Assembly: GCF_004135205.1 (NCBI RefSeq)
Contig: NZ_CP035490.1
Span: 5,633,501-5,697,500 of the forward strand
Source of the DNA: Hahella sp. KA22
GTDB lineage: Bacteria > Pseudomonadota > Gammaproteobacteria > Pseudomonadales > Oleiphilaceae
DNA length: 64,000 nucleotides
Reading direction: 5' to 3'
This document shows positions 26,697 to 42,616 of this stretch, in pieces. The translations under genes were made by a program, and so were the position numbers. The notes beneath the pieces are model-generated. The model was given only the letters and a program-made list of their open reading frames with translations, was not told the origin of the DNA and did not search any database. How positions within the stretch are numbered: position 1 is the stretch's first letter; every line of letters begins with the position of its first letter.

Positions 26697-26731
26697 AAAA
26701 AAACGGGCGCGGTGGATAACCATCGCGCCCG
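26697..26731 (-). terminator. Terminator downstream of serA, best oriented on the minus strand
   Basis: CGGGCGCGGTGG / CCATCGCGCCCG (one G-T wobble) around ATAA gives a 12-pair stem. On the plus strand it is followed only by AGCTTCTTCTC, but on the minus strand by TTTTTTT. It probably ends serA transcripts and also stops antisense transcripts from the right. Confidence 0.65.
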
Positions 26732-26942: not shown

Positions 26943-27614
26943 ATGGAAAGCACTCATTGCGCTGACGTTCGCGCCCTTCTGGTCGATGACCATCCAATAG
27001 TGATCGACGCCCTGTCCACTTCGTTGCTCGCGTTGAAGCTGTGCAACTGGATCGACAAGGCCAACACGCTGGCGGAAGCTAAGGAGAAACTGGCTAACAA
27101 TACGGAAATCAGCCTGGTGTTACTTGATCTGCACCTGTCCGACGCCGAGGGCATACACGCCATGATGACCTTGCGGGAAACTTATCCCGACGTTCCCATC
27201 ATCATTTTTTCCGGCGACGACTCCACCGACACCATCGCCAAAGCGTTTGAGTACGGCGTACGCGGCTACGTGCCGAAGAACTCGCCAGTGGAAGTCGTAG
27301 TGAGCGCAGTCAAAGTGGTGCTCGCCGGCAGTTGCTACATCCCACCCCACGCCATCCGCATGCTGGGTTTTGAACCTGCGGCGGGAACTGTGGCCATAGG
27401 CAATACCGCCGTCGAAACCCGCCCCTATTTTTCACCCCGCCAGGAACAGGTGTTTCACTATTTGCTGGAAGGCATGCCCAACAAGGTAATCGCCGCGCGC
27501 CTGGATATGGCGGAAGGCACGGTGAAAACCCATATGAACACGATCTTCAGAGCCTTGGGAGTGCGTAATCGCGCGCAGGCGATTCTGAAGGCGCGACAGC
27601 TGGGCGTCATCTGA
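26943..27614 (+). CDS. LuxR/NarL-type response regulator
   Basis: The 223-residue protein has a receiver domain (ALLVDDHPIVIDAL, phospho-Asp in LVLLDLHLSDAEG near residue 61, FSGDDS, KN lysine) and a LuxR helix-turn-helix (YFSPRQEQVFHYLLEGMPNK, MAEGTVKTHMNTIFRALG). AAGGGG lies six to seven bases before the ATG. The hybrid kinase gene converges on it with only 15 bases between stops and is its likely partner. An operator-like palindrome stands upstream and recurs near the kinase and the large fusion gene. Confidence 0.9.
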   Translation: MESTHCADVRALLVDDHPIVIDALSTSLLALKLCNWIDKANTLAEAKEKLANNTEISLVLLDLHLSDAEGIHAMMTLRETYPDVPIIIFSGDDSTDTIAKAFEYGVRGYVPKNSPVEVVVSAVKVVLAGSCYIPPHAIRMLGFEPAAGTVAIGNTAVETRPYFSPRQEQVFHYLLEGMPNKVIAARLDMAEGTVKTHMNTIFRALGVRNRAQAILKARQLGVI

Positions 27615-27629: not shown

Positions 27630-29459
27630 CTAATGGGACGAGACGGACTCTATCCAGGTCTGCAGCTGGCGCGAAGAGATGGGTTTGGTGAGAAAGCTGA
27701 ACCCGCTTTCCTGTAGTTCTCTTACCCGTTCAGGCTGTACATTGCCGGACACCAGCAGCATCTTTTCCTTTGGCATCTGCTGGGACAGGCTGTCGGCGAT
27801 ATCCAGCCCATCCTCGCCTTTGTCCAGCATGTCGTCGAGTATCAGCGCGTCCGGCCAGCCCTGGCTGCGATGGCGCAGCGCCAGCAATTCATCCTTGTTG
27901 GCGACGATTTCGTAGCGGCATCCCCAGGCGTCGAACTGAAAGGAAAGCGCGGACCTCACTAACGGATCGTCCTCCACCAGCCAGACATTGAGGTCAATGA
28001 AGGCATTGTCCGGGGCTTCCAGATCGCGAAGACTGGGCGCGATACAGGCGTATTCCGCCAGAGGCGCGTAGAAAGAAAAGCGCGAGCCCTTGCCTGGCGA
28101 GGACTGCACGGTCAGCCCCGCATCGAGAATTTCGTTGATGCGGCGTACGATGGCCAATCCCATGCCGATGCCCTTCTCCCTGTTACGGCTGGGATTATTG
28201 AGTTGCACAAAATCTTCAAAGATACGCACCTGATCGTCACGCTCAATGCCCGGCCCCGTATCGCTGATAGTGAAAGCCACGCGACGTCCCTCCACCGCTG
28301 CCTCCACGCTGACTTCGCCTTTGTGTGTGTACCGGATGGCATTGGAAATCAGATTGTTAAGCAAACGGCTCAGCAGTTCCAGGTCGGAATAGAGGCAGAC
28401 TCGCGAGTAGTTGCAACGCCAAGCCAAACCTTTGGCCTGACACAGCAATTGGAACTCCGCCTCCAAAGGCCGCATGACTTCATCCAGCGACAGCGCCTTC
28501 ATACTGGGTTGAAACTTGCCTGCTTCGAAGCGCGACAGGTCCAGCAGGTTATTGAACAGCGTGCGCAACACTTCAATCGCCTGCCGCTGTTTACTGACGA
28601 TCTCCTGCGCCGTCTCCCCCAAAGGCTGATACGACAGCGTGTCCGTCAACAGGGACACTGCGTACAAGGGCTGGCGCAGATCGTGACTGGCCGCGGCCAT
28701 GAAATAGGTTTTGGCTTTATTCGCTTCCTGCGCCGCCGCCAGCGCCTCTTCGGCTTTTTTGCGCTCCGCCTCGACTTTGTTCAGCAACGCGCTCTTTTCA
28801 AAACGCATGGCGACGCTCTCCGCAAAAGTGCGACTGCTGCGACGCACTGAGCTGATCATCAATAACGTCAGGGTCGCCAAGGGCGCGGCGATGCGCAGTT
28901 CGTCCACCCCTTGCAGTGACCAGTACAGAATTGGCTGTCCCATCAACAGGGGAATGGATAACAAAAAGGAGCGGTAATCGGACGCCAGATTCACCATGGC
29001 CCCCACCCCGTACAGGCTGATGGCCAGGGTCATGAAAAAGGCGACATTGTCCGTCTCCACCGCGCCCACGGTCCAAATTCCCGTACCGACCAGCGCTTGA
29101 TTGATAAGACTGCTGCGCAGCAATCGCTTGTCGCTGTGCGCAATTTCCTGGAAGGTCATGCTGTCCAACTGGCGCATAATCTGACGACTGATCTGCAGGC
29201 GCAGAACTTGCGCCGCCGCCACGGGCCCTACCCACAACAAAATGCGCGACAGAGGCGCCTGGTCCCATAACATGAATAGAAAGATCGCCATGATGAGAAA
29301 CACGCCCTGCACTGCAGGCAGCGTCTGTTGGCAGCGGATTTTGACGGACTCGATCAGGTGGGCGCGCTCAAACTCCTCCGGCGCCGTCCCTAAGCGACTG
29401 GAATCCTTAGCTTTATGCTCTTGTCTCACCTTGCTCTCCAGGCTGGGCTGAGAACGCAT
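27630..29459 (-). CDS. Membrane hybrid histidine kinase/response regulator
   Basis: The 609-residue protein has an N-terminal membrane region with about six hydrophobic segments (from FLIMAIFLFMLW near residue 55 to about 210), a short coiled coil rich in Lys, Glu and Ala, a HisKA domain with the phospho-His in AASHDLRQPLYAVS, a HATPase domain (LISNAIRYTHKGE, DTGPGIERDD, GIGMGLAIVRR) and a C-terminal receiver domain (LVEDDPLVRSAL, LILDDMLDKGEDG). The membrane region is presumably the sensor. It converges with the LuxR-type regulator gene and is divergent from the GMC fusion gene. Confidence 0.9.
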   Translation of the reverse strand: MRSQPSLESKVRQEHKAKDSSRLGTAPEEFERAHLIESVKIRCQQTLPAVQGVFLIMAIFLFMLWDQAPLSRILLWVGPVAAAQVLRLQISRQIMRQLDSMTFQEIAHSDKRLLRSSLINQALVGTGIWTVGAVETDNVAFFMTLAISLYGVGAMVNLASDYRSFLLSIPLLMGQPILYWSLQGVDELRIAAPLATLTLLMISSVRRSSRTFAESVAMRFEKSALLNKVEAERKKAEEALAAAQEANKAKTYFMAAASHDLRQPLYAVSLLTDTLSYQPLGETAQEIVSKQRQAIEVLRTLFNNLLDLSRFEAGKFQPSMKALSLDEVMRPLEAEFQLLCQAKGLAWRCNYSRVCLYSDLELLSRLLNNLISNAIRYTHKGEVSVEAAVEGRRVAFTISDTGPGIERDDQVRIFEDFVQLNNPSRNREKGIGMGLAIVRRINEILDAGLTVQSSPGKGSRFSFYAPLAEYACIAPSLRDLEAPDNAFIDLNVWLVEDDPLVRSALSFQFDAWGCRYEIVANKDELLALRHRSQGWPDALILDDMLDKGEDGLDIADSLSQQMPKEKMLLVSGNVQPERVRELQESGFSFLTKPISSRQLQTWIESVSSH

Positions 29460-29887
29460 CTCATCGGTGGATGAGCGTCACGCCACGGTCTCTCTTAATC
29501 TTAGATGAGTTTGATTACCGCGCGGCGATTCAGTTTCAGTTTAACAGCAGAATTTTCGTCGATTGCAAGTAAACCTAGGTTTAGGCCCCTCGTTTATTCC
29601 TTTCTGTGTATTCAACCTGTATTTTGTTTAAAAATTAACCAAATCAAATTTTCATTGCTATTCTGATTCAAGCAGTCCTCTAACAATAATGACCTGATCG
29701 ACAGATAAGCCGAACGCCATCCTCTTGTCGATTAATACAATGCGTCCAACGCATTGGCGTAGCCCATCACCCTGGAACCAGAGCGGCGCAGTCCGACGCT
29801 CCCTTGCGCCCGGACATCGCAGTCAAAACGTCGCCGAACGGACATCAACCTCATAACAAGTCCTTTGCTAGGGAAGGAGTTCCGGCC
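29460..29887. other. Regulatory region between hybrid kinase and GMC fusion gene
   Basis: This 428-base AT-rich stretch separates two divergent genes. It holds the perfect palindrome TAAACCTAGGTTTA at 29570-29583 and, just before the fusion gene, GGAAGGAG as Shine-Dalgarno sequence at about 29872-29879. No small gene is supported. Confidence 0.55.
29570..29588. promoter_or_regulatory. Operator-like palindrome, copy 2, between hybrid kinase and GMC fusion gene
   Basis: TAAACCTAGGTTTA is a perfect 14-base palindrome followed by GGCCC, giving 17 of 19 identities with the copy upstream of the regulator gene. It lies 111 bases before the kinase start and 318 before the fusion gene, and has the same flank orientation relative to the fusion gene as copy 1 has to the regulator gene. 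Confidence 0.55.
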
Positions 29888-32800
29888 ATGCACTTTCATC
29901 TTTCCGAACCGTTCGAAAGCCTGATAAAAGATGCGCTCCCAGAAACGCGGGTCCACGACACCGATGTATTGATTGTCGGCTCCGGCTATGGCGGCTCCAT
30001 CGCCGCCATGCAACTGGCCGGGGGCAAGTCTTCCAAAGACAATACCGGTGACGCGACAGTGACGGTGTTGGAACGGGGCAAAGAGTACCGTCCTGGCGAT
30101 TTCCCGGAAGCCCTGGGGGACATCCCCGGCCACATGCAATTATTGAAATCCGGCTCCAACCGCCCTATTGGCTACGCTGACGCGCTCTATGATTTTCGCA
30201 TTGGTAAAGAAGTGGATGTGTTGGTGGGCTGCGGGCTGGGAGGCGGGTCGCTGATTAACGCCAACGTGGCCCTGGAGCCAGAGGCGGATACATTGGCGCA
30301 AGCCGCCTGGCCGCGTGAGTTTCGGGAACATCCGGGACTGCTGGAGCCGCACTTTCAGAAAGTGCGTCGCTTGCTGGGAGTCCGCAATCAGGATCAGACC
30401 GCCCGCGACAGACTATGCCGTCTCCCCAAGTTTCAGGCGCTGACCAGACTCGCCAACTCAATTGACGCGTCAGTGGAAACAGCGCCATTGACCGTCAGCC
30501 TGCGTCCTGGCGCCAACGCCGTCGGCATTGAGCAGCCGGGCTGTAATCTCTGCGGCAACTGTGTGTCTGGATGCAATCAGGGCGCGAAGAATACCCTGGC
30601 CATGAACGTCATTCCGCTGGCGAAGTCCCGCGGGGCCAGGTTTTACACCGGCGCCACGGTTCTCACTCTGGAGCCCATCGCCCTCTCAGCAGCCGATAAC
30701 ACGACAGGGGCGAACAGGCGACGTTGGCGGGTGCGGGTACGGCGCACCGCCACAGAAAAGAACAATCTGGCTGACGAGGTATTCTGGATTGAAGCCGCCA
30801 CCGTCATCCTGGCGGCGGGAGCGCTAGGCAGCACGGAAATTCTGTTACGGTCTCAGAATTCCGGCCGTTTGCAGCTTTCCGACAGACTGGGCAAGCGCTT
30901 TTCCACCAACGGCGACGGTTTCGCCATGAGCTATGGGCAGGCGAACCCAGTCATGGCGATCGGCAAGTCTGACGAATCTCTGCAAACCGGCGAGGAGTCA
31001 TGCGTCGGCCCCACCATTACCGGCGTATCCCGCCCGCTGGCTCGCCATCCCGAAACCGGCGCCGAAGTACGTTTGACCTTGGAGGACGGCTCTGCGCCCT
31101 ACGGCGTGGCGCGCCTTTTCGGCGAAATCGCCACGACCGGCGCGCAACTGAACCGTCTCACCGACATGACCTTGCCCGCCTGGTTTGTAAACGCGAGTAA
31201 AAACGGCGTGTTCAAAGATCCTCTGGCGCACCACAACGGCGCCATGGAGCGCTCGCAAATCCTCTTGATCATGGGGGATGACGGCGCCGCCGGCGGCCTT
31301 TCCCTGCGCGCCAGCGATAATCCCGCGCAACAGGCTGACACAGACTACTCCCGCATTCGCGTCGAATGGCCCAAGGCGGCGGAGGACGCCTGCCTGACCG
31401 CGGCTGACGCCCTGTTGCGCAGCCAGGACAGAAAAGCCGGATTCGACGGCGGCCAATATGTCCCTAATCCTCTCTGGAAAACCCTGCCGGATGACGCCTC
31501 TACCGTCATGAGCGGCAAGCTTCCCGGCGGTCGCGTCATCACGGTGCACCCACTGGGCGGCTGCGCCATGGGCGACGGTCCCGACACTGGCGTCGTCAAC
31601 CATTACGGCCAGGTATTCAAGGCCGACCCTGGCGCCCGAAACATCAGCGCCCCCGCTTTGCATGATGGGCTATATGTGCTGGATGGCTCTATCCTGCCAA
31701 CCGCCCTGGGCGTCAATCCGTTCCTGACCATATCCGCGTTGTCTCTTCGGGCCGCAGAGTCGATTCAGGAACAACATGACTGGCTTGCAGCAACGCAGGA
31801 ACGCGTCAGTCCCGAGTTGGCGCAAGCCATCTCGCCAGTAAAACAGACGCCGCCGACCACAGCGGCCAAGCCCAACCCCACGGTGACGCTGAGTATCAGC
31901 GAGCAGATGTTCGGCCGTTTGCAGGCTGAGGAAGCCAGCGCTCATCTGCCCGACTGGATAGAAAGCTGGATCAGACAGTGGGCCGAGGCGCTTCCCACTG
32001 AATCTCGACCCGCCAGTGGCGTCGCTACGCGCCTCACCGGCGATCAGGGGCTGATTTTCAAGGTGGAAACGCAAATAGATGATCTGCATGACTGGCTGCA
32101 GAAACCAGGAGAGGAGCTGAAGGCGACGGCAAAGCTGTATCTAAATCCGCTCAGCGCGGAGCAAACCGCCAAAATGCACACCTACGGACTGCCTCCAGAA
32201 CTGTTGCAAGGCGCAATTCCCATCGCCGTGGGCGAAGGCGTGGTGCGCCTGCTGCACTGCGATGAGCCCGGTCCGCTGGCCACCGCCTGGCGCGGCGCAC
32301 AGGCCCTCAACGCTTATCGTACGCGCCGCCAATCTCTGTCTGGCTTCGCCTTGCGTCAGCTCAAGCAGCGCCTGAGTCGCTGGGATTCTGACGCCTCGCT
32401 GAAGGAGCCGGCGCCAGGGTTGTTCAAACAAATCAAAGGTTTCTGGACCGTCGCCAAGCATCATGCGCAATACCGTCGCATGAGTTACAGCTTCCAGTTC
32501 ACCCCCAATACCAACGGCTCGCGCGCGCCTCGTTTCAAAAACATGCCTGGGGAGATCATTCACCTGCGTGGAGAAAAGCTGCTGGCCTGGAAGAACGGGG
32601 TTCCCAGACTCTGGCGCGCCCTGACCAATCTTCCCATTGAGTTGTCCCACGATCGCCATGGCGACGCCGTGTCAGGTTCGCTGTACGTGGACATGGAATA
32701 CATGTCGGAAAGGGGCCTGGCCCAGGTGGTCAAATCGCCTAATCTGCCGGAGTCCGCCATGGCGGCCGCGGGCCTGGGCATGCTGTTTCTGCGCTGCTTG

Positions 32801-35782
32801 CTGCAAACCCAGTTCTGGGATTTCGGCTCGCCTCATTACCCTGACAAGCCCATCGCCTCCAATCCGCATCCCCGGGCGTTACGCGTATCGGATAACCGGG
32901 TGATCAGCCCGCAGCGCGCTGAACTCAGCGTCCCTTTGAATGACGCCTCGTCGGAGCAGATCGGTATTGTGCTGACCCGCTATCCGCAAACTAACGCGCA
33001 GCGGCCGGGACAGCCTGTGCTGCTCATTCATGGGCTCGCCCAGGGCAGTCTTATTTATTGTTCCGAAGCCATCCCCGGGAACATGGCGGTTTATCTGTGG
33101 CGCGCCGGCTTTGATGTGTGGATGCTGGATTATCGACTCAGCAACGCCCTTCCCACACCGGCGCCCCTGCAGGGCTGGAGTATTGAAGAAATCGCCCGCT
33201 ACGATATCCCCGCCGCGGTGCGCCATATTCACCGGGTCAACCCGGGTAAGATCAACCTGTTCGCCCATTGCGTCGGCGCTACCGCCACGACCATGGCCAT
33301 TCTCAAAGGCTGGTTGGACGATCCCGCCGATCCCTTTATCGGACGGGTGGCCTTCAATGCGATCCATCCCTGGATCATCCCTTCGCCGGTCAACCGCAGC
33401 CGCGCCAAGCTGGGCAGTTTCCTGCGCGACTCGGTCAATGACGCTCAACTCAACCCTATACCTCAGCCTAACCCCGGCGCCTTCGATTCCATGTTCGATC
33501 GTCTGGCTTTCTCTTTCGCGCGCCTGGGCGAGCTGCAAGAGGCGGAAGAAGGTAGAGCGCGCAACGGCGGCGAGCGGCATACGCACAGCGACCATGCGCC
33601 CGATGGCGGCGTGGAAATCTCCCAGGGCATCTGCGACAAAATGAGTTTCCTGTACGGCCGCATGTGGCGACACGATCAGATTTCTCCCGCCACTCACAAA
33701 GCCTTTCAGGATATGTTGGGGCAAGCTCCTGGCGCAGTCTATCGGCACCTGTATTACTTCGCCCAGCAACAACGGGTCACTTCCCGGGACGGCGAAAACA
33801 CCTTTCTTACCCCCTCTGCGGTGCGCAAACACTGGAGTTATCCCACCCTGTTCATTCATGGCGAGCAAAGCAAAGTGTTCAATCCCCAATCCGCCACCCG
33901 CTCCGCCATCCGGCTCAGTGAAATGCTGAAGGGCGGTCCATCCGCGCCGCCGGTGCTGTTGAAGCGGGCGCCGCATTACGGCCACATGGATGTCATCCTG
34001 GCGCAAAACGCTTACAAGGACACCTTTCCCAGTCTGCGCGCGTTTTTTAGCGAAGATGAGGAATGTCTGCGCCACTCCGCCGGGGACCGCGTCGAATTTC
34101 ATCATCAACTGTTCGACAGCTATCGCGCTGCGGATGACCTGCATGCGGTAAACGCCAACCTGTTCAGCGCCGGACCAATCATCCGCGGCGCCTGGCTGGA
34201 TAGCGCCGGTATTGGCCGCCCGCGTATTGTGCTGCGGTTGTGGGCGGAGCTTTCCGATCTGGCGGATCTGGCCGACGCCCAGGCGACGCCGACCCGACGT
34301 CTGGCGCTGGAAGGCGCTGAATTGATTCAATGTCAGTTCTGCTCCGCCAATGATCCACATCATTTATTGCTGGATGTGGCGGTGAGGGTCGATCCGGGAC
34401 AGGAACGGGAGGTGCGCATCCGCTTCAGCCTGACCCAGCGTCAGTTTGATCCAGCAACCCAGCAGGCCATGTCGCAGACCTTACATATCCCCGCCTCCGC
34501 TGGCTGGCTGCGCCGTCTGCGCGAGCTTTGCCTGCATCGCGGCGTCAGCCCCGCCATGCGCTTTCTGGTTGGCTCCTGCCGCTATCCGGGCGCAGTGCTG
34601 GAACGGGATCTCGCCGATCAGGCGTTCGTCGGCATGGGACGTCAGGTCAGAGGCGACGCCCAACTGCCCGGTGCGGATTCCGTCTTTTTTATTGGGGATC
34701 AGATATACGCAGACGCCACCGCCGAGGCGTTTGACAACACCGCCCTGAAAGAGCGCTACATCACACGCTACCGAGAGGCGTTCAACTCGCCCAATATGCG
34801 AAAACTGCTGCAACTGGCTCCCGTTCACTTCACGGTGGATGACCATGAGTTCAGCGACGATTGCTCCGGACGTCCGCCACAATTGGACGCTCACCTGCAG
34901 GAGCGCGAACGCTTTGACTTCGCCCTGCGCGCCGCCCGCAGCTTTCAATGCAGCGGACGCCAGCCGGACGCCGCACTCTGGTATCCCCAGGGCGTTAGCG
35001 CAACCCGGGAGTTCGACTGTCCGGTCTTCGTCATGGACACCCGCACCGAACGGCGACTACGCAGCGCTGGCGCCGCTGGCGCGCAAGCGGAAATGATCGA
35101 CGCGACGCAATTCGCCGCCCTGTCCAATTGGCTATCGGAAGCGCAACGGCTAACGCCGGAGCGGCCTAAATTTATCTTCTCCGGCAGCGTGATTGCGCCA
35201 GTGGAAATACGCCTCACACAGTACCCTGACCTGTGGCGCAATCACGACAGCTGGTGCGGCTATCCTCATACCCTGGCGGCGGTAATGGGGCTGATCTACG
35301 AGCGGCAGATCGCTAACGTCATTTTCGTCGGCGGCGACCAGCATTTATGCGCTCTGGCGCGCATGACGCTGGCCAACCCTGCGGATCAGGCGGTATCGCA
35401 CCGCAAGGCCGTGACAGTATGGCAGATCGTGTCGTCCGGCCTGTACGCGCCACTGCCCTTCGCCAACGCTAATCCCCGGGATTTCGAGTGGGAAAAACCC
35501 AGCGTCGTGCCCATGCACGGCTCGCAGTTACAACTGCAGGCGGAAGCGCGCTTGTTGCGGGCGGATAAATCCCAGTTCGTGCGCGTGGACGCCGTCCCCA
35601 CGGGAGACTGCTGGACGCTGGAAGTCCGCGTATGCGACCCGGAGGGTTTCGTGGCTCCAGTGGCGCAGCCAACCGCGCTGAAAGATGGCGAGCTGGCGGA
35701 CGACGACAAAACCTGGCGCATCCGGCTGACCGCCAATGTCGAAGCGGAGCCGGGCAAACCTGTGCGTCCAGAACCCGCGTAA
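29888..35782 (+). CDS. Trifunctional fusion: GMC oxidoreductase, alpha/beta hydrolase, PhoD-like phosphatase
   Basis: This 1964-residue protein joins three enzymes. The first 640 residues form a GMC (cholesterol-oxidase-like) flavoprotein: FAD motif GSGYGGS at 31-37, a Cys cluster C219-C222-C225-C229 (CNLCGNCVSGC), HPLGGCAMG near 553 and GVNPFLTISAL near 608. A region to about 1020 resembles no domain I know. Residues about 1040-1420 are an alpha/beta hydrolase (VLLIHGLAQGS; nucleophile elbow AHCVGA with Cys1128; HYGHMD). Residues about 1555-1900 are a PhoD-like metallophosphatase (GDQIYAD at 1603, VDDHEFSDD near 1650, GGDQHLCAL near 1815). No signal peptide is seen, so it is probably cytoplasmic. 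The ATG at 29888 has GGAAGGAG eight bases upstream. A role in sterol or lipid ester use is inferred. Confidence 0.85.
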   Translation: MHFHLSEPFESLIKDALPETRVHDTDVLIVGSGYGGSIAAMQLAGGKSSKDNTGDATVTVLERGKEYRPGDFPEALGDIPGHMQLLKSGSNRPIGYADALYDFRIGKEVDVLVGCGLGGGSLINANVALEPEADTLAQAAWPREFREHPGLLEPHFQKVRRLLGVRNQDQTARDRLCRLPKFQALTRLANSIDASVETAPLTVSLRPGANAVGIEQPGCNLCGNCVSGCNQGAKNTLAMNVIPLAKSRGARFYTGATVLTLEPIALSAADNTTGANRRRWRVRVRRTATEKNNLADEVFWIEAATVILAAGALGSTEILLRSQNSGRLQLSDRLGKRFSTNGDGFAMSYGQANPVMAIGKSDESLQTGEESCVGPTITGVSRPLARHPETGAEVRLTLEDGSAPYGVARLFGEIATTGAQLNRLTDMTLPAWFVNASKNGVFKDPLAHHNGAMERSQILLIMGDDGAAGGLSLRASDNPAQQADTDYSRIRVEWPKAAEDACLTAADALLRSQDRKAGFDGGQYVPNPLWKTLPDDASTVMSGKLPGGRVITVHPLGGCAMGDGPDTGVVNHYGQVFKADPGARNISAPALHDGLYVLDGSILPTALGVNPFLTISALSLRAAESIQEQHDWLAATQERVSPELAQAISPVKQTPPTTAAKPNPTVTLSISEQMFGRLQAEEASAHLPDWIESWIRQWAEALPTESRPASGVATRLTGDQGLIFKVETQIDDLHDWLQKPGEELKATAKLYLNPLSAEQTAKMHTYGLPPELLQGAIPIAVGEGVVRLLHCDEPGPLATAWRGAQALNAYRTRRQSLSGFALRQLKQRLSRWDSDASLKEPAPGLFKQIKGFWTVAKHHAQYRRMSYSFQFTPNTNGSRAPRFKNMPGEIIHLRGEKLLAWKNGVPRLWRALTNLPIELSHDRHGDAVSGSLYVDMEYMSERGLAQVVKSPNLPESAMAAAGLGMLFLRCLLQTQFWDFGSPHYPDKPIASNPHPRALRVSDNRVISPQRAELSVPLNDASSEQIGIVLTRYPQTNAQRPGQPVLLIHGLAQGSLIYCSEAIPGNMAVYLWRAGFDVWMLDYRLSNALPTPAPLQGWSIEEIARYDIPAAVRHIHRVNPGKINLFAHCVGATATTMAILKGWLDDPADPFIGRVAFNAIHPWIIPSPVNRSRAKLGSFLRDSVNDAQLNPIPQPNPGAFDSMFDRLAFSFARLGELQEAEEGRARNGGERHTHSDHAPDGGVEISQGICDKMSFLYGRMWRHDQISPATHKAFQDMLGQAPGAVYRHLYYFAQQQRVTSRDGENTFLTPSAVRKHWSYPTLFIHGEQSKVFNPQSATRSAIRLSEMLKGGPSAPPVLLKRAPHYGHMDVILAQNAYKDTFPSLRAFFSEDEECLRHSAGDRVEFHHQLFDSYRAADDLHAVNANLFSAGPIIRGAWLDSAGIGRPRIVLRLWAELSDLADLADAQATPTRRLALEGAELIQCQFCSANDPHHLLLDVAVRVDPGQEREVRIRFSLTQRQFDPATQQAMSQTLHIPASAGWLRRLRELCLHRGVSPAMRFLVGSCRYPGAVLERDLADQAFVGMGRQVRGDAQLPGADSVFFIGDQIYADATAEAFDNTALKERYITRYREAFNSPNMRKLLQLAPVHFTVDDHEFSDDCSGRPPQLDAHLQERERFDFALRAARSFQCSGRQPDAALWYPQGVSATREFDCPVFVMDTRTERRLRSAGAAGAQAEMIDATQFAALSNWLSEAQRLTPERPKFIFSGSVIAPVEIRLTQYPDLWRNHDSWCGYPHTLAAVMGLIYERQIANVIFVGGDQHLCALARMTLANPADQAVSHRKAVTVWQIVSSGLYAPLPFANANPRDFEWEKPSVVPMHGSQLQLQAEARLLRADKSQFVRVDAVPTGDCWTLEVRVCDPEGFVAPVAQPTALKDGELADDDKTWRIRLTANVEAEPGKPVRPEPA

Positions 35783-36075: not shown

Positions 36076-37611
36076 TCAATCGGCGGTGACCGCCTCGTCC
36101 ACTTCGTGATCGACGCCTTTCATGCGCTTGCGCAAAATAGGACCGATAACGTAGGGAGCGATAAGACCCACTCCAGCGACAATCCAAAGCGTGATGGACA
36201 GACCGCTGCTCCAAAGGATGCTCCAGTCGCCGTCCGACAACGTCATGGCGTGACGCAGGTTTTTCTCCATCTCCGGCCCCAGCAAGGTTCCCAGAATAAC
36301 CGGGACCAGTGGGATTTCGACTTTGCGCAGAACATAGCCGAGCACGCCGAAGAAAATCATAAAGTACAGATCAAACACACTGTGGCTGATTGAATAGACG
36401 CCAACAAAAGCGACCATGGTGACAATCGGCAACAGGTATTTGGGCGGCACCGACAGCAGTTTCACGAACACGCCGACCAGCGGAATGTTGAGCAACAGCA
36501 GCATCAGGTTGCCGATTAGCAGTGCGGCGATAACGCCCCAGACAATGTCGCCATGCTGCTGGAACATCAGCGGGCCTGGTGTGATGTTCATGGAAATCAA
36601 CATCGCCAGCAGAACAGCAGTGGTGCCGCTGCCAGGCACGCCCAGGGTCAGCATGGGCACCAGCGCGCCATTGGCGGCGGCGTTATTGCCCGCTTCCGGC
36701 GCAGCCACGCCGCGAGGGTCGCCTTCACCGAATTTGGCCTTCTTGCCCAGAATGCGTTTTTCCAGGGTATAGCTGACGAAGCTGCCCAATGAGGCGCCCG
36801 CGCCGGGCAGAACCCCAGCCAGGAAGCCGATAACGCTGCCGCGCAGCGATGTCGGGAAGACAGCGGTGAAGTCTTTCCACTTCATTTTCAGCTTGTTCAT
36901 CGCAATCATCTTGCGGCCTTCGCCAGCATGCGCTTCGATGAAAAACAGCAGTTCAGAGATAGCGAACAGACCGACGATCAGAATGATGAAGTCAACGCCT
37001 TCATACAGCTCCAGTGTGTTGAAGGTGAAGCGCTGCACGCCGGTGTTCATGTCGATGCCCACCGTCGCCATCATCAAGCCTATGGCCGCCGCCAGAATCG
37101 TCTTCACCGGGTTCTTGCCGGTGATGCCGCCCAGGGTGGCGAACGCCAGCACAAAGAGCGCGAAGTATTCAGCCGGCCCAAAGGTCAGGGCGAATTTCGC
37201 CAGCCAGGGCGCCAGCAGAATCAAGCCGATCGTCGCGATCACGCTGCCGATAAAGGAGGCTACTGCGGAAATCGCCAGCGCTTCCGCGGCTCTGCCGCCT
37301 TGCGCCATGGGATAGCCGTCCAGACAGGTCATCATCGCCGGCTCGTCGCCGGGAATATTCAGCAGAATCGACGAAATGCGTCCGCCATACATGGCCCCGG
37401 CGTACACCGAGGTCAGCATGATCAAGGCCGTTTCCGGTTTCAGCCCGAGGGTGAACGCCAACGGGATCAGGATCGCCACGCCATTGGCGGGGCCCAATCC
37501 CGGCAGCGCGCCAATCAGGGTGCCCAGGAAGCAGCCGAGGAGCGCGAACATCAAGTTTTCCGGCGTCAGGGCGACAGCAAAGCCCTGCATCAGAAAGTTC
37601 AAGGTTTCCAT
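36076..37611 (-). CDS. tctA: Tripartite tricarboxylate transporter large membrane subunit
   Basis: The 511-residue polytopic protein has the TctA signatures: FALLGCFLGTLIGALPGLGP near residue 25, MYAGAMYGGRISSILLNIPG-type segment (VYAGAMYGGRISSILLNIPG), GVLPGAGASLGSFVSY and TLGVPGSGTTAVLLAML. It forms the channel for a carboxylate such as citrate, driven by an ion gradient. Its ATG overlaps the TGA of tctB by one base (TGATG), which points to coupled translation. The operon ends at the terminator near 36000. Confidence 0.92.
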   Translation of the reverse strand: METLNFLMQGFAVALTPENLMFALLGCFLGTLIGALPGLGPANGVAILIPLAFTLGLKPETALIMLTSVYAGAMYGGRISSILLNIPGDEPAMMTCLDGYPMAQGGRAAEALAISAVASFIGSVIATIGLILLAPWLAKFALTFGPAEYFALFVLAFATLGGITGKNPVKTILAAAIGLMMATVGIDMNTGVQRFTFNTLELYEGVDFIILIVGLFAISELLFFIEAHAGEGRKMIAMNKLKMKWKDFTAVFPTSLRGSVIGFLAGVLPGAGASLGSFVSYTLEKRILGKKAKFGEGDPRGVAAPEAGNNAAANGALVPMLTLGVPGSGTTAVLLAMLISMNITPGPLMFQQHGDIVWGVIAALLIGNLMLLLLNIPLVGVFVKLLSVPPKYLLPIVTMVAFVGVYSISHSVFDLYFMIFFGVLGYVLRKVEIPLVPVILGTLLGPEMEKNLRHAMTLSDGDWSILWSSGLSITLWIVAGVGLIAPYVIGPILRKRMKGVDHEVDEAVTAD

Positions 37612-38048
37612 CAGCTTACCTCCAGTACGCCCAGCGGCAACGGCAATTCAAGCACGTAGTTGAACAACACGAACACCACTACGCCGCCAATCAGGCCGGA
37701 CATATAGGCCGGGAACTTGCGGGCGCCCATGCGCCAGCTCAGGGTGCCGACCGCCAGCGTCGTGGTAATGATGAAGCCCAGCGGCTCCAGCAACACGCCA
37801 TACAGCGTCAGCACTACCACCGCCACCACCATTTCAGCGCCGGTGCGGTTCCAGGGCCAGTGATTGTCCGGGTCGGGACGCAGCATCAGATAAAGACTGC
37901 TTAGACCAAGCACTACCGACAGGAGAATCGGGAAGGTCTCGGGTCCGACCGATTCATTGCCGCCGAAGGGCTCGGGCAGTTGATACGCGCCCCAGCCATA
38001 GGCTATGGCCAGGACGAGCATCACTAAACCGAAAATACGGTCATTCAT
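37611..38048 (-). CDS. tctB: Tripartite tricarboxylate transporter small membrane subunit
   Basis: The 145-residue TctB-type protein has four hydrophobic segments (LVMLVLAIAYGWGAYQLP; FPILLSVVLGLSSLYLML; MVVAVVVLTLYGVLLEPLGF; GLIGGVVVFVLFNYVL) and the characteristic length of the family. It lies between tctC (five bases away) and tctA (one-base overlap). Confidence 0.88.
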   Translation of the reverse strand: MNDRIFGLVMLVLAIAYGWGAYQLPEPFGGNESVGPETFPILLSVVLGLSSLYLMLRPDPDNHWPWNRTGAEMVVAVVVLTLYGVLLEPLGFIITTTLAVGTLSWRMGARKFPAYMSGLIGGVVVFVLFNYVLELPLPLGVLEVS

Positions 38049-38053
38049 GGCGA

Positions 38054-39040
38054 TTAACGGATCAAGCCAATTTCTTTAGAAAGCGCTTGGATGTCCGAGA
38101 TTTGCGCTTTCACGAAATTGTTGAATTCAGCGCCGCTTTTGTGGAACGGCATCAGTCCATTTTTCTCCATCAAGGATTTCCACTGCTCGCTGGCGTAGAT
38201 CTTGTCGATGGCGGCGGTCCAGTACTCTTTTACATCAGCCGGCGCGCCGCCAGGGATGTAGAAACCGCGCCAGTTAGGAGCGACGGACTCGATGCCCTGC
38301 TCGCGAGCGGTAGGAATAGTCGCGAATTTACCTGGCAGGCGATCTTCAGACAGCACCGCCAATACGCGCAGGTCACCGGATTCGAAGAAGCCCTGCACCT
38401 CAGTGATGTCGCCGGTGAACGCGTCAACGTGACCGCCTACGACCTGAGTCATGGCTTCGCCGCCGTTGTTGTAGGACAGGTAAGAGATTTTCGGCAGATT
38501 GGTGACGCCAGCAGCCTTCGCGCTGATCAGCACTTTCAGGTGATCCCAGCCGCCGTTGGCGCTGCCGCCTGCGAATTTAACGGAGCGCGGATCTTGTTTC
38601 AGCGCCGCCATCAGATCGCTCAGACTTTTATAAGGAGAGTTTTTGGATACCGCGATAACGCCATAATCCGCGCCGATTGCGCCAATCCAGTTAACCATTT
38701 CCGCGTTCATGCCGGGATACTGACCCTGGGCCAGACGGGTTGTGGTGGCGGTGGACGCGGCGACCACCAGATTCTGGTCATTCTTGCGCTTGCTGACGGT
38801 ATGCGCGAATGCGACGCCGCCGCCTGCGCCCGCCATGTTAATGGTCTGTACGCTGCCGGGAACTAACTTCAGTTCCTCCATCACGTTGCCGACGCTACGA
38901 CAGGTGAAGTCCCAGCCGCCGCCAGGATCTGCAGGAGCGATACATTCAACTTTGCCTTTAGGTTCGTAGGCCATGGTCAGAGTAGCGCTGACGGTCAGCG
39001 CGGCGGCCACAAGCATTTTAATCGGAGTTCTGATTGTCAT
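38054..39040 (-). CDS. tctC: Tripartite tricarboxylate transporter substrate-binding protein
   Basis: The 328-residue periplasmic receptor has a signal peptide (MTIRTPIKMLVAAALTVSAT, cleaved near residue 24) and the TctC/Bug fold: VECIAPADPGGGWDFTCRS, NMAGAGGGVAFAHTV, FAGGSANGGWDHLK and GDITEVQGFFESG. It delivers a carboxylate to TctAB. GAGGT stands seven bases before the ATG. It is divergent from tctDE, which normally controls this operon. Confidence 0.92.
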   Translation of the reverse strand: MTIRTPIKMLVAAALTVSATLTMAYEPKGKVECIAPADPGGGWDFTCRSVGNVMEELKLVPGSVQTINMAGAGGGVAFAHTVSKRKNDQNLVVAASTATTTRLAQGQYPGMNAEMVNWIGAIGADYGVIAVSKNSPYKSLSDLMAALKQDPRSVKFAGGSANGGWDHLKVLISAKAAGVTNLPKISYLSYNNGGEAMTQVVGGHVDAFTGDITEVQGFFESGDLRVLAVLSEDRLPGKFATIPTAREQGIESVAPNWRGFYIPGGAPADVKEYWTAAIDKIYASEQWKSLMEKNGLMPFHKSGAEFNNFVKAQISDIQALSKEIGLIR

Positions 39041-39398
39041 TATTGTTACCTCACAGGTTACAGGAATTAATTCGATCGCAAATATATTGGTTTTGCCCTT
39101 ACGGGGCTACCGGCGTCCGCCGTCCTGCTTATATTGTCATTTGCTGACGGAACGAAAAGCTGGCGGGATTCCAAGGTCTGGGGGGTGGGATTGTCGAAAA
39201 AGATACGTTGTGTTCATGTCACGCTCCTATTATTTTTGTTGCGCTTTATGTTTAGTCGCTCGTTGCGGTTTTGGAAACTTGGTTTCGATTACCTCTCCGG
39301 CGACCTATGCTTGATATGGAACAGGTAATGACGGCATCCTAACTGCTGAACCTGTCATAAACCTGTCACGTCCTGATTCGAAAAAGTGAAGTCGGCGC
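39041..39398. other. Divergent regulatory region between tctC and tctD
   Basis: This 358-base region must hold both promoters. Besides the direct-repeat site at 39352-39369, ACAGGT half-sites (ACCTGT on the other strand) occur near 39054 next to tctC and near 39321. No small gene is supported. Confidence 0.5.
39352..39369 (+). promoter_or_regulatory. Near-consensus Pho-box-like direct repeat upstream of tctD
   Basis: CTGTCATAAACCTGTCAC matches the 18-base Pho-box pattern at all but one position by hand. The two CTGTCA halves are 11 bases apart, as expected for any OmpR/PhoB-family regulator, so it may instead be a TctD self-regulatory site. It ends 29 bases before the tctD start. Confidence 0.55.
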
Positions 39399-40062
<664 letters not shown>

Positions 40063-40070
<8 letters not shown>

Positions 40071-41493
40071 CTCGCCGTTGCGTCCGGATCAGCCGGTCTC
40101 ACTGCGCAACAGGTTGATCCTGGGCGCCGTGGCGCTGATTCTGGTGCTCGGAACTCTGGCCATCATCGCTATCGACGGATACGGCAAACGCGCGGCGGAA
40201 CTCTCTTATGACCGACTGCTGGCCAGCGCCGCCTTTCAGATTGCGGACGCCATACACGTTCGCGATGGCGTAGTGGATGTGGATCTGCCGGTGGCGGCCT
40301 TCGAAACCCTCGCCCTGGCCCGCGACGACCGGGTGTTCTACCGCATCAGCGGCCCTCGCGACGCCTACCTCACCGGTTACGACGACCTGCCCCGTCCTGA
40401 GGCCAGCCAAGGCTTCAGCAAAGACGGCGCGCGCCTGATCCAGCAACGATTTTTCACCAGCCGCTATCTGGACGAACCTGTGCGCTTCATCGTGTTGCGG
40501 CGCTTGTTGACGGAGGCGGACATCACCGGCTACATCACCGTGCAATTGGGACAGACCATCAACGCCCGCGCCGATCTGGCCGAGGATATCACCGGCAAAG
40601 GTTTACAACTGATCGCCATCGCTTCCGTCATCGCCCTGGGACTATTGGGCTACGGCATCAAACGCGCTTTCTCTCCCCTGGATCAGATCGAAAGAGAGCT
40701 GGCCGCGCGCTCCCCTACTGATCTGACGCCCCTGCACGTCACGCCCATCAAGGAAACCTGGCGCTTACAGCAAACTATCAATCACTTTATGCAGCGCCTG
40801 CAGGATACCCTGGACCGCATGCAGCGCTACACCGGCGAGGCGGCTCACCAGATCCGCACGCCGTTGGCGGGGTTGCGCGCGGCGTTGCAGAACCTGCGCG
40901 ACCATCCCGATATCGATGACCCCAAACCCGTGTATAACCGCATCATGCAGTCGGTGGATCAACTTAACACCACCGTGTCGCAACTGCTCAATCAGGCCAC
41001 TATCACCCATCGCCTGCAAAGCGAGGCGCTGCGGCGCATCGAACTCAACAAAGTGGTGAAAGAGGCCTGCCTGGAGCTGGCGTCACACGCTATCAACGAG
41101 AAAGTGGAACTGGCTTTTGAGGCGGACGCAGAGGATACGACTTTGCTTGGCGACGCCTTTGCACTGAAGCAGTTGTTCCGCAATCTGATCGAGAACGCCG
41201 TCCGCTACAGCCCGGTGGATAGCGTAGTGGTAGTACGCGTCCACCAAAGCGTCAACCGATTGTTCGTGGAAGTAAAAGACCACGGCCCAGGCATTCCTGT
41301 GGAATATCGGGACAAAGTCTTCACCCGTTTCTTTCGCGCGCCTGCCGCCGTCGGCGTCGGCAGCGGACTGGGTCTGGCCATCGTGCGCGAGATTGCGGAG
41401 CGCCATAACGCGGAGGTGGGGCTGATGGATAATCACCCTCAAGGCCTGACGGTGCGGGTAGGCTTTCGTAAGGAGAGCATCCATGGCAAATAG
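40063..41493 (+). CDS. tctE: Sensor histidine kinase of the tricarboxylate system
   Basis: The 476-residue inner-membrane kinase has a first membrane helix (LILGAVALILVLGTLAIIAI), a periplasmic sensor region of about 120 residues, a second helix (IAIASVIALGLLGYGI), a HisKA domain with GEAAHQIRTPLAGLRAAL and a HATPase domain (NLIENAVRYSPVD, DHGPGIP, GSGLGLAIVREI). The ATG at 40063, or its twin at 40060, overlaps the end of tctD, so the two are translationally coupled. It likely senses the transported carboxylate. Confidence 0.88.
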
Positions 41494-42616
41494 CCGCTTC
41501 GGTTTTTTCCGTACAGATTTGCTATGCAGAGCGCTTCTCGTGCTCGCCCTCTTCGGCGTCACTACCGCACGGGCAGTGTCCGGTCCGCTGCCGGTCGTGC
41601 TTTATCCGGCGCAGCAGAAGCCGGTCAGCGTGCTCAATATTCATGCGGTGCTGGATTACGTGGTGATGAACCCCATCATCAAGGCGTTTCAGCAGCGTTA
41701 TCCCAATGTGGAAATCCGACTGATTGAGTTTGAAACCGCCGACCTGTTCCAGCACACCGTGGAAGGCTCCACCCATACGACAGAACCGCCGGACGCCATC
41801 GTCGGCGACCTGCTGATCAGCTCGGCGATGGACCTGCAGGTGAAACTGGTCAATGACGGCTATGCGCAGCGCTACGAGTCCCCCTACACCCGCCGCATTC
41901 CCGACTGGGCGAAGTGGCGCAACGAGGCGTTCGGCTTTACTTTTGAACCGGTGGTGACCGTGGTGAACACTAAACTGTTGCCGGGGCCGCCACCACAGGA
42001 TCGCCAACAATTGCTGGAGCTGATCCGTAGCCAGGGCGAAAGTCTGGCGGGCAAAATCGCCACCTATGATATCGCCCGCAGCGGCGTCGGTTACCTGTTC
42101 GCCGCCCAGGACAGCCAGCAGGCGACCACCTATGGCCGACTATTGGAGGCCTTCGGCACCCACTCCGTACAACTGGCCTGCTGCACCGGCGACATTCTCG
42201 ACGGTCTGGCTTCCGGGCAGTACGCGATCGGCTATAATCTGCTGGGCTCGTACACCAAGGCCCGACTGGCGTCGGCGCCTAACCTGAAAATGATCCTACC
42301 GGCGGACTACACCTTGATCATGACGCGCATCGCTCTGATTCATAAGCACGCCGTCAACACGCAGAACGCCCGGGATTTCCTGGATTTTCTGCTGTCTCCG
42401 GCAGGTCAGCAGACTCTGGCCAGCGAGTCGAAACTGTATCCTATCGACCCTGGCGTGCACGGCGAAGTCACTGCGGACTGGCTGAACAAGCATGCGCCGG
42501 GGCCGCTGAAACCCATTACGGTGGGACCGCAATTGCTGGTTCCGCTGGATAAATTGAAACGGCAACGCTTTTTAAGCGAGTGGCGCCGCTCTCTGGAACG
42601 TGAAACGAAACAATGA
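41483..42616 (+). CDS. Periplasmic extracellular solute-binding protein linked to TctDE
   Basis: The 377-residue protein has a signal peptide (MANSRFGFFRTDLLCRALLV, cleaved near ARA-VSG) and an iron/polyamine-type solute-binding fold: VLYPAQQKP, MNPIIKAFQQRYPNVEIRL, PDAIVGDLLISSAMD and FLDFLLSPAGQQTLASES. It overlaps tctE by 11 bases with AAGGAG upstream, and I remember a similar protein after tctE in P. aeruginosa. No ABC permease is near, so it may be an accessory sensor that presents ligand to TctE. That role is inferred. Confidence 0.8.
   Translation: MANSRFGFFRTDLLCRALLVLALFGVTTARAVSGPLPVVLYPAQQKPVSVLNIHAVLDYVVMNPIIKAFQQRYPNVEIRLIEFETADLFQHTVEGSTHTTEPPDAIVGDLLISSAMDLQVKLVNDGYAQRYESPYTRRIPDWAKWRNEAFGFTFEPVVTVVNTKLLPGPPPQDRQQLLELIRSQGESLAGKIATYDIARSGVGYLFAAQDSQQATTYGRLLEAFGTHSVQLACCTGDILDGLASGQYAIGYNLLGSYTKARLASAPNLKMILPADYTLIMTRIALIHKHAVNTQNARDFLDFLLSPAGQQTLASESKLYPIDPGVHGEVTADWLNKHAPGPLKPITVGPQLLVPLDKLKRQRFLSEWRRSLERETKQ

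Follow-up and report, generated by a model that had tools for sequence, protein, structure and literature searches.

Does the 1964-codon gene in this 64,000-nucleotide stretch of Hahella sp. KA22 DNA (the window) encode enzymes that merely share a chain, or a single enzyme into which a pathway has been gathered? The original prediction joined a GMC flavoenzyme, an alpha/beta-hydrolase and a PhoD-like phosphatase in one protein, and suggested that they act in turn on a lipid conjugate, with sterols among the possible substrates. The parts of the gene discussed below are as follows.

29888-35782, plus strand: fusion coding sequence, 1964 aa, in the order GMC, LINK, Cys-type alpha/beta-hydrolase, spacer, PhoD
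29888-31807, plus strand: GMC flavodehydrogenase domain, residues 1-640 (GSGYGGS at 31-37, His554, Asn610)
30542-30574, plus strand: C219-X2-C222-X2-C225-X3-C229, putative Fe-S cluster loop, invariant, with spacing like that of FAD-GDH-type subunits
31865-32917, plus strand: LINK unit, about residues 660-1010, conserved, no Pfam match, patatin-fused in split operons
33014-33997, plus strand: alpha/beta-hydrolase, acid-lipase-like, residues 1043-1370 (from Pfam and solved relatives)
33269-33271, plus strand: Cys1128, nucleophile position (AHCVGA; chain alignment)
33983-33985, plus strand: His1366, catalytic His position (YGHxD; chain alignment)
34085-34552, plus strand: variable spacer before PhoD, residues 1400-1555 (chain alignment)
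34577-35452, plus strand: PhoD domain (Cys1564, GDQIY at 1603, DDHEF at 1651, GGDQH at 1815)

The gene is a single uninterrupted frame running from the ATG at 29888 to the stop at 35782, with an AAGGAG, in place as a ribosome-binding site, ending eight bases 5' of that ATG and an earlier possible start in the same frame, a TTG, at 29804; the encoded chain has a mass of about 216 kDa. An assembly artefact or missed stops as the source of the joins were considered and rejected, because the window's genome is one 6.96-Mb contig and near-full-length relatives have no internal stops, and the joins are accordingly real. All of the motifs quoted in the original prediction (GSGYGGS, HPLGGCAMG, GVNPFLTISAL, HGLAQGS, AHCVGA, GDQIYAD, DDHEF and GGDQH) are present in the chain, and the domain search set beforehand as a check placed each enzyme above its Pfam cut-off: GMC_oxred_N (residues 111-322, 42.6 bits against 23) and GMC_oxred_C (residues 489-618, 45.7 against 24.6), Abhydrolase_1 (residues 1043-1370, 36.5 against 25.8) and, as the third domain, PhoD (residues 1595-1855, 65.4 against 27). 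The three predicted enzymes thus do stand in one real, continuous chain, but a fourth conserved unit between the GMC and hydrolase parts, here called LINK, and the spacer at about residues 1400-1555 had been overlooked, so that the chain is more than three enzymes laid end to end. Structure prediction for the window chain and for the relative L024 (93% and 95% alike in two pieces) returned pLDDT values of 26.9 and 28.8, with no residue reaching 50.

The same domain order, which the original prediction had proposed to seek among homologues, recurs in five of the six other genomes of the genus, in distant Gammaproteobacteria and on Ensifer plasmids. Among the 58 genomes searched as relatives (own included), the near-full-length matches within the genus are 92-95% (G001, G002, G005) or 43% (G004, G006) identical to the window chain, none being found in G003, and the match in G056, of the same taxonomic order, consists of three stretches of one 2028-codon frame; Hahella sp. 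HN01 has a chain 95% identical throughout. Chains with the same domain order at 26-28% identity are found in G056, G200, G216 and two Ensifer plasmids. With residues 640-1964 as the query, at least 13 of 369 class-sample genomes (own included) matched at E 1e-6, and a LINK plus hydrolase profile matched at least 12 of the 369 class genomes and at least 9 of 398 phylum genomes at E 1e-25, these class and phylum counts being lower bounds because scoring was confined to the top two or three candidates of each genome. A plasmid search matched 52 records, 7 of which, all from Ensifer, cover at least 80% of the chain; among three Ensifer loci inspected, two are intact (L065, L072) and one is split over two frames (L066). 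The two-enzyme GMC-hydrolase form reaches into Bacteroidota, with Persicobacter and Bernardetia, and tblastn together with gene length places it on a Leptospira plasmid too. In the records seen, such chains are annotated only as 'alpha/beta fold hydrolase' or 'GMC oxidoreductase'. The chain alignment used below comprises 21 chains, most of them 25-32% identical to the window chain; 10 include PhoD, one of these being interrupted by a frameshift, and 11 lack it.

Two plasmid loci deserve separate mention. On the 59.5-kb plasmid lbp2 of Leptospira borgpetersenii (L099), a hybrid histidine kinase lies two genes upstream of the two-enzyme chain and a gene annotated as a sphingomyelin phosphodiesterase lies downstream, and on a Rhizobium leguminosarum plasmid (L070) a GMC-hydrolase gene is found near phaC, phaE, an Fe-alcohol dehydrogenase gene and a CoA-transferase gene.

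The GMC domain shows the features of its oxidoreductase family, with both Pfam domains above cut-off, the FAD motif and the His/Asn pair. In addition, it contains four cysteines (C219, C222, C225 and C229) that are invariant in all 21 aligned chains and present in all 19 other GMC frames returned (L023 gave none; L073 repeats L094). In the FAD-glucose dehydrogenase of Burkholderia cepacia a [3Fe-4S] cluster is held by Cys212, Cys218 and Cys222, that is, C-X5-C-X3-C (PMC6719666), and this spacing equals that of C219, C225 and C229. The three ligand-type cysteines also align onto those of the window in 5/5 GMC subunits that adjoin a Gluconate_2-dh3 gene (L094-L098), three of which keep the fourth cysteine as well, and Fer4_6 matched weakly in 7 of the 21 chains (best E 0.011). 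The GMC domain therefore likely carries an Fe-S cluster, and because the invariant CX2CX2CX3C motif matches the [3Fe-4S] cysteine spacing of FAD-glucose dehydrogenase, its role is more probably that of a dehydrogenase passing electrons on than that of a sterol oxidase. Gluconate_2-dh3 (PF13618), taken as a proxy for the hitchhiker gamma subunit, gave no match among six candidates scored in G000. Genes for RoxA-like and di-haem CCP/MauG-type (c-type) cytochromes were observed near GMC-hydrolase genes at L086:11245-13140, L060:5966-7021 and L062:3101-4180; they are possible electron partners or there by chance.

The middle domain was expected to be an esterase, and its best solved relatives are gastric/lysosomal acid lipases (E 1.8e-19 to 9.9e-16), but it does not have the residues of an ordinary serine esterase. 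Acid lipases have a Ser-Asp-His catalytic triad and PhaC a Cys-Asp-His triad. In all 21 chains the nucleophile position is Cys (HCxG) and His1366 is invariant, while opposite the lipase Asp (GGKD) stands Asn in 17 chains and Ser in the other 4; the acid lipase triad is thus replaced by Cys, Asn/Ser and His throughout, and on the acid-lipase alignment the PhaC triad keeps its Cys and His but not its Asp. The replaced Ser and Asp positions are the catalytic residues of the lipases. Cys, Asn and His are also found in 6 of 7 stand-alone hydrolase genes (L081-L085 and L092), the seventh (L091) having Gly in place of Cys. As Cys and His are kept in 21/21 chains and in 6/7 stand-alone genes, the Cys-type hydrolase marks a subfamily, not one odd protein. 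The lone relative at L091:9303-10475 is probably inactive, and its start resembles a signal peptide by eye; another lone gene, of the Cys type, at L085:5213-10197 has neighbours that we take to be beta-oxidation genes (fadA/fadB).

At the C-terminal end, the Pfam match is accompanied by GDxxY, DDHE, GDxH and the Cys ligand position of the PhoD family. Two PhoD paralogues in the window genome (L031 and L032, at 2.48 and 6.19 Mb), which have twin-arginine-like N-termini, share with it the Cys, GDQIY, DDHE and GDxH positions. The B. subtilis PhoD binds one Fe3+ and two Ca2+ with Cys-180 as a ligand (PMC4223295), and we infer that Cys1564 is the equivalent of Cys-180 by way of the two paralogues, not by alignment to 2yeq. 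The domain matches solved structures by sequence at E 0.12 and 0.47 only. Neither a Tat signal nor a hydrophobic segment was seen on the fusion chain, and because it has no such segment the fusion protein is probably cytosolic and soluble.

LINK was matched by no Pfam family in the window protein or in LINK-holding ORFs of 201, 260 and 479 aa, and was not identified in the 21 chains among 25 of 39 matched families listed. A LINK search returned at least 16 matches in at least 12 of 369 genomes (up to six candidates scored per genome), and each of those found is either part of a GMC or hydrolase gene or adjacent to one. In two loci the parts form split operons:

L083:7844-14723: five-gene operon
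L082:3315-10237: five-gene operon

The L083 operon encodes, in one direction, the hydrolase, ADC, a patatin with a C-terminal LINK, the GMC protein and a calcineurin-type phosphoesterase (21.6 bits against a cut-off of 21.5). The gene order in L082, from the same genus, is identical, with the phosphoesterase under the cut-off (18.0 bits) and ADC and patatin assigned by likeness and motif, not by Pfam. L081 has hydrolase, ADC and patatin/LINK with no GMC gene nearby, and L084, L092, L093 and L100 hold parts of the module, some in broken frames. It is the patatin joined to LINK in the split form that suggests a lipid substrate. Among PMC open papers, none was found on this operon, nor on the combination of enzymes in the chain.

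The phosphoesterase, too, occurs as a separate gene. For 24 single-chain loci the gene surroundings were mapped; PhoD is part of the chain in 8 of them and absent from it in 16 (the near-copies L024, L028, L029 and L072, the frameshifted L066 and the Leptospira locus being left out). A separate phosphoesterase lies no more than two genes away from 9 of the 16 unfused GMC-LINK-hydrolase genes, and six of these nine score above the Pfam cut-off (L061, L062, L068, L086 and L088 for PF00149; L090 for PhoD). The PhoD gene of L090 is 31 bp off, calcineurin-type phosphoesterases overlap or lie within 34 bp at L061, L062, L068, L067 and L071, and the distance is 85 bp at L088 and 2.0 kb at L086. The three weaker cases are L067 (19.5 bits; named a metallophosphoesterase in its record), L059 (a PhoD-like gene 55 bp off, 22.5 bits, hhalign probability 97 to the PhoD set) and L071 (no relevant Pfam match, but metal motifs, and a probability of 98 in hhalign against the phosphoesterases of the split operons). 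With 52 PF00149 matches in 28.4 Mb (six genomes), about 0.18 of 16 loci would be expected to have such a gene within 3 kb, as against 5 of 16 observed above cut-off, plus the PhoD above cut-off and the three weaker cases, although the loci are not fully independent (L061 and L062 are from one genus, and the L086 gene is 2.0 kb away). The phosphoesterases beside unfused genes are of several kinds, and that of L088 may instead be the partner of an adjacent gene, apparently one for a glycosyltransferase. At the other seven loci (L058, L060, L064, L069, L070, L087 and L089) no phosphoesterase was found among the neighbours scanned (some neighbours by Pfam; the L060 contig is short), so that this enzyme is apparently not strictly required.

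In many relatives these activities are encoded by separate genes side by side, which strengthens the case for the functional link originally proposed between the domains. On the sequence evidence, the module recurs in fused, half-split and fully split forms, of which the PhoD fusion is one, and the neighbouring genes of the relatives suggest one undescribed, probably lipid-processing, pathway. In a tree of the GMC and hydrolase parts (24 rows; a quick search with no bootstrap), the 8 PhoD fusions and L090, whose next gene is PhoD, together make up one side of a branch supported by an SH-aLRT of 100, and the PhoD-fusion label needs two changes; a single fusion that was later undone in L090 explains this as well as two fusions do. 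Both kinds are found in genus g182: in G200 (L055) PhoD is part of the chain, in G312 and G408 (L062 and L061) a phosphoesterase gene lies upstream, and the kinases and regulators of these loci are related. As the chains fall in different clades, this difference, judged from the tree, is not a swap within one gene.

Two regulatory genes precede the fusion gene in the window:

27630-29459, minus strand: hybrid histidine kinase (sensor, HisKA, HATPase, receiver), divergent from the fusion gene
26943-27614, plus strand: LuxR-type response regulator (the listed ORF begins at 26712; the start of homologues agrees with an ATG that a count by eye puts at 26943)

A hybrid kinase with a C-terminal receiver lies near 9 of the 24 genes (that of the window, L026, L027, L025, L055, L056, L061, L062 and L089), and a LuxR-type regulator near eight of these, not being seen at L056. 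BLAST links 8/9 kinases (26-50% identity between genera), and the L089 kinase, which is not among the seven that built the model, scored 346 bits. When the L055 kinase was compared with the window genome, the window kinase was the first of 89 matches (238 bits, the runner-up having 226), and its alignment alone began at residue 30, all others starting at residue 114 or later. The sensor profile scored 263-318 bits in the five genomes that supplied the kinases it was built from, and no more than 93 bits in the rest of the 369 genomes (up to seven candidates scored per genome); it found no such kinase in G095, G109, G257 and G379, which have the single-chain gene. This kinase type was thus not seen away from the module, as far as the profile can tell, and most module genes do without it. 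In the window, the neighbouring kinase and regulator probably control the fusion gene. Another sensor-like protein (Reg_prop/SpoIIE) is found upstream at L069, and window positions 36076-42616 appear to hold genes for a tripartite tricarboxylate transporter together with a two-component pair of their own.

We would give roughly even chances to the reading in which the gene encodes a large soluble enzyme that collapses a multi-gene pathway for a lipid-like phosphoester/acyl substrate into one chain. The substrate would be a lipid-like molecule with both an acyl group and a phosphate ester. Cleavage of the phosphoester by the PhoD domain would free an alcohol; the GMC domain would oxidise an alcohol, the electrons passing from FAD through the Fe-S cluster to a cellular acceptor and not to O2; the Cys hydrolase would form a thioester acyl-enzyme and then hydrolyse or transfer the acyl group, LINK would keep the lipid or the domains together, and the hybrid kinase and LuxR-type regulator would govern the gene. 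Put in full, as an undescribed cytosolic lipid pathway built of an Fe-S GMC enzyme, a new class of Cys-type acid-lipase relatives, the new domain LINK and a phosphoesterase, ranging from a five-gene operon to a single chain and governed, in several lineages, by a dedicated hybrid kinase and LuxR-type regulator, the proposal falls a little short of an even chance. Counted against this reading are the seven unfused genes at which no neighbouring phosphoesterase was found, the several kinds of phosphoesterase, the presence of the kinase near only 9/24 genes, the change of Asp to Asn/Ser, by which the hydrolase may be weak or dead, and the look of the other window neighbours, which, read by eye, is not lipid-related.

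A fusion that serves co-expression or joint regulation only, with unrelated substrates and no common pathway, would accord with the 7/16 unfused genes at which no neighbouring phosphoesterase was found and with the variation in phosphoesterase type between loci; it is nevertheless unlikely, as the pairing turns up repeatedly, both in several lineages and among the split operons, and more often than the base rate predicts. Less likely still is an acyltransferase or polymerase-like hydrolase acting in hydroxyacid or polyhydroxyalkanoate metabolism. PhaC likewise has a Cys nucleophile, its profile matches weakly (E 0.005), ADC is present in the split operons and pha genes lie at the Rhizobium locus described above, yet acid lipases match far better than PhaC, the PhaC catalytic Asp is not kept and pha genes were noticed at that single locus.

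The sterol reading, in which an esterase, a cholesterol oxidase and a phosphatase degrade a sterol (ester) in series, draws on the nearest solved structures, which are cholesterol oxidases for the GMC domain (profile E 8.4e-44) and acid lipases for the hydrolase. It appears very improbable, and sterol oxidation as originally predicted was not borne out: the NCBIfam cholesterol oxidase model NF058674 gives 148.1 bits against an equivalog cut-off of 850, the cysteine loop is missing from the one solved cholesterol oxidase shown in the alignment, and the Ser nucleophile of the hydrolase is replaced. More remote again is a catalytically dead hydrolase that serves the other two enzymes as a lipid-binding scaffold. 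The loss of the lipase Asp in 21/21 chains and the Gly of L091 would be in keeping with this, but Cys and His are invariant across chains of such low identity and are retained in most stand-alone genes.

The fused, half-split and fully split forms name the partner enzymes for each part, so that a search for the substrate can use genes of about 350-600 codons in place of one of 1964. An Fe-S cluster in the GMC branch, if true, would mean that electron acceptors should be assayed rather than peroxide.

Compared with cholesterol oxidases (PDB 4u2l, 1coy), the GMC domain shares the FAD fold family and the His/Asn pair, which cholesterol oxidase has according to PMC6719666, but the solved example in the alignment has none of the four loop cysteines. 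Beyond the three cluster ligands of the Burkholderia cepacia FAD-glucose dehydrogenase alpha subunit (6a2u; profile match E 3.7e-17), the loop in the window protein has one more Cys (C222), and the window GMC part is fused to other enzymes, with no PF13618 partner matched in G000. The hydrolase finds its best solved match in the acid lipases (1hlg, 1k8q, 6v7n), from which it departs by the changes of nucleophile from Ser to Cys and of Asp to Asn/Ser. The PhoD domain is distant by sequence from the B. subtilis enzyme (2yeq, E 0.47) and has the metal-site motifs, including the aligned Cys, in common with the Tat-type paralogues L031 and L032, but it lacks their twin-arginine start and forms the C-terminal part of a 1964-aa chain. 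Finally, the two-enzyme chains of Azospirillum, Rhizobium and Bernardetia have the same GMC-LINK-hydrolase core as the window protein and, unlike it, do not carry PhoD in the chain.
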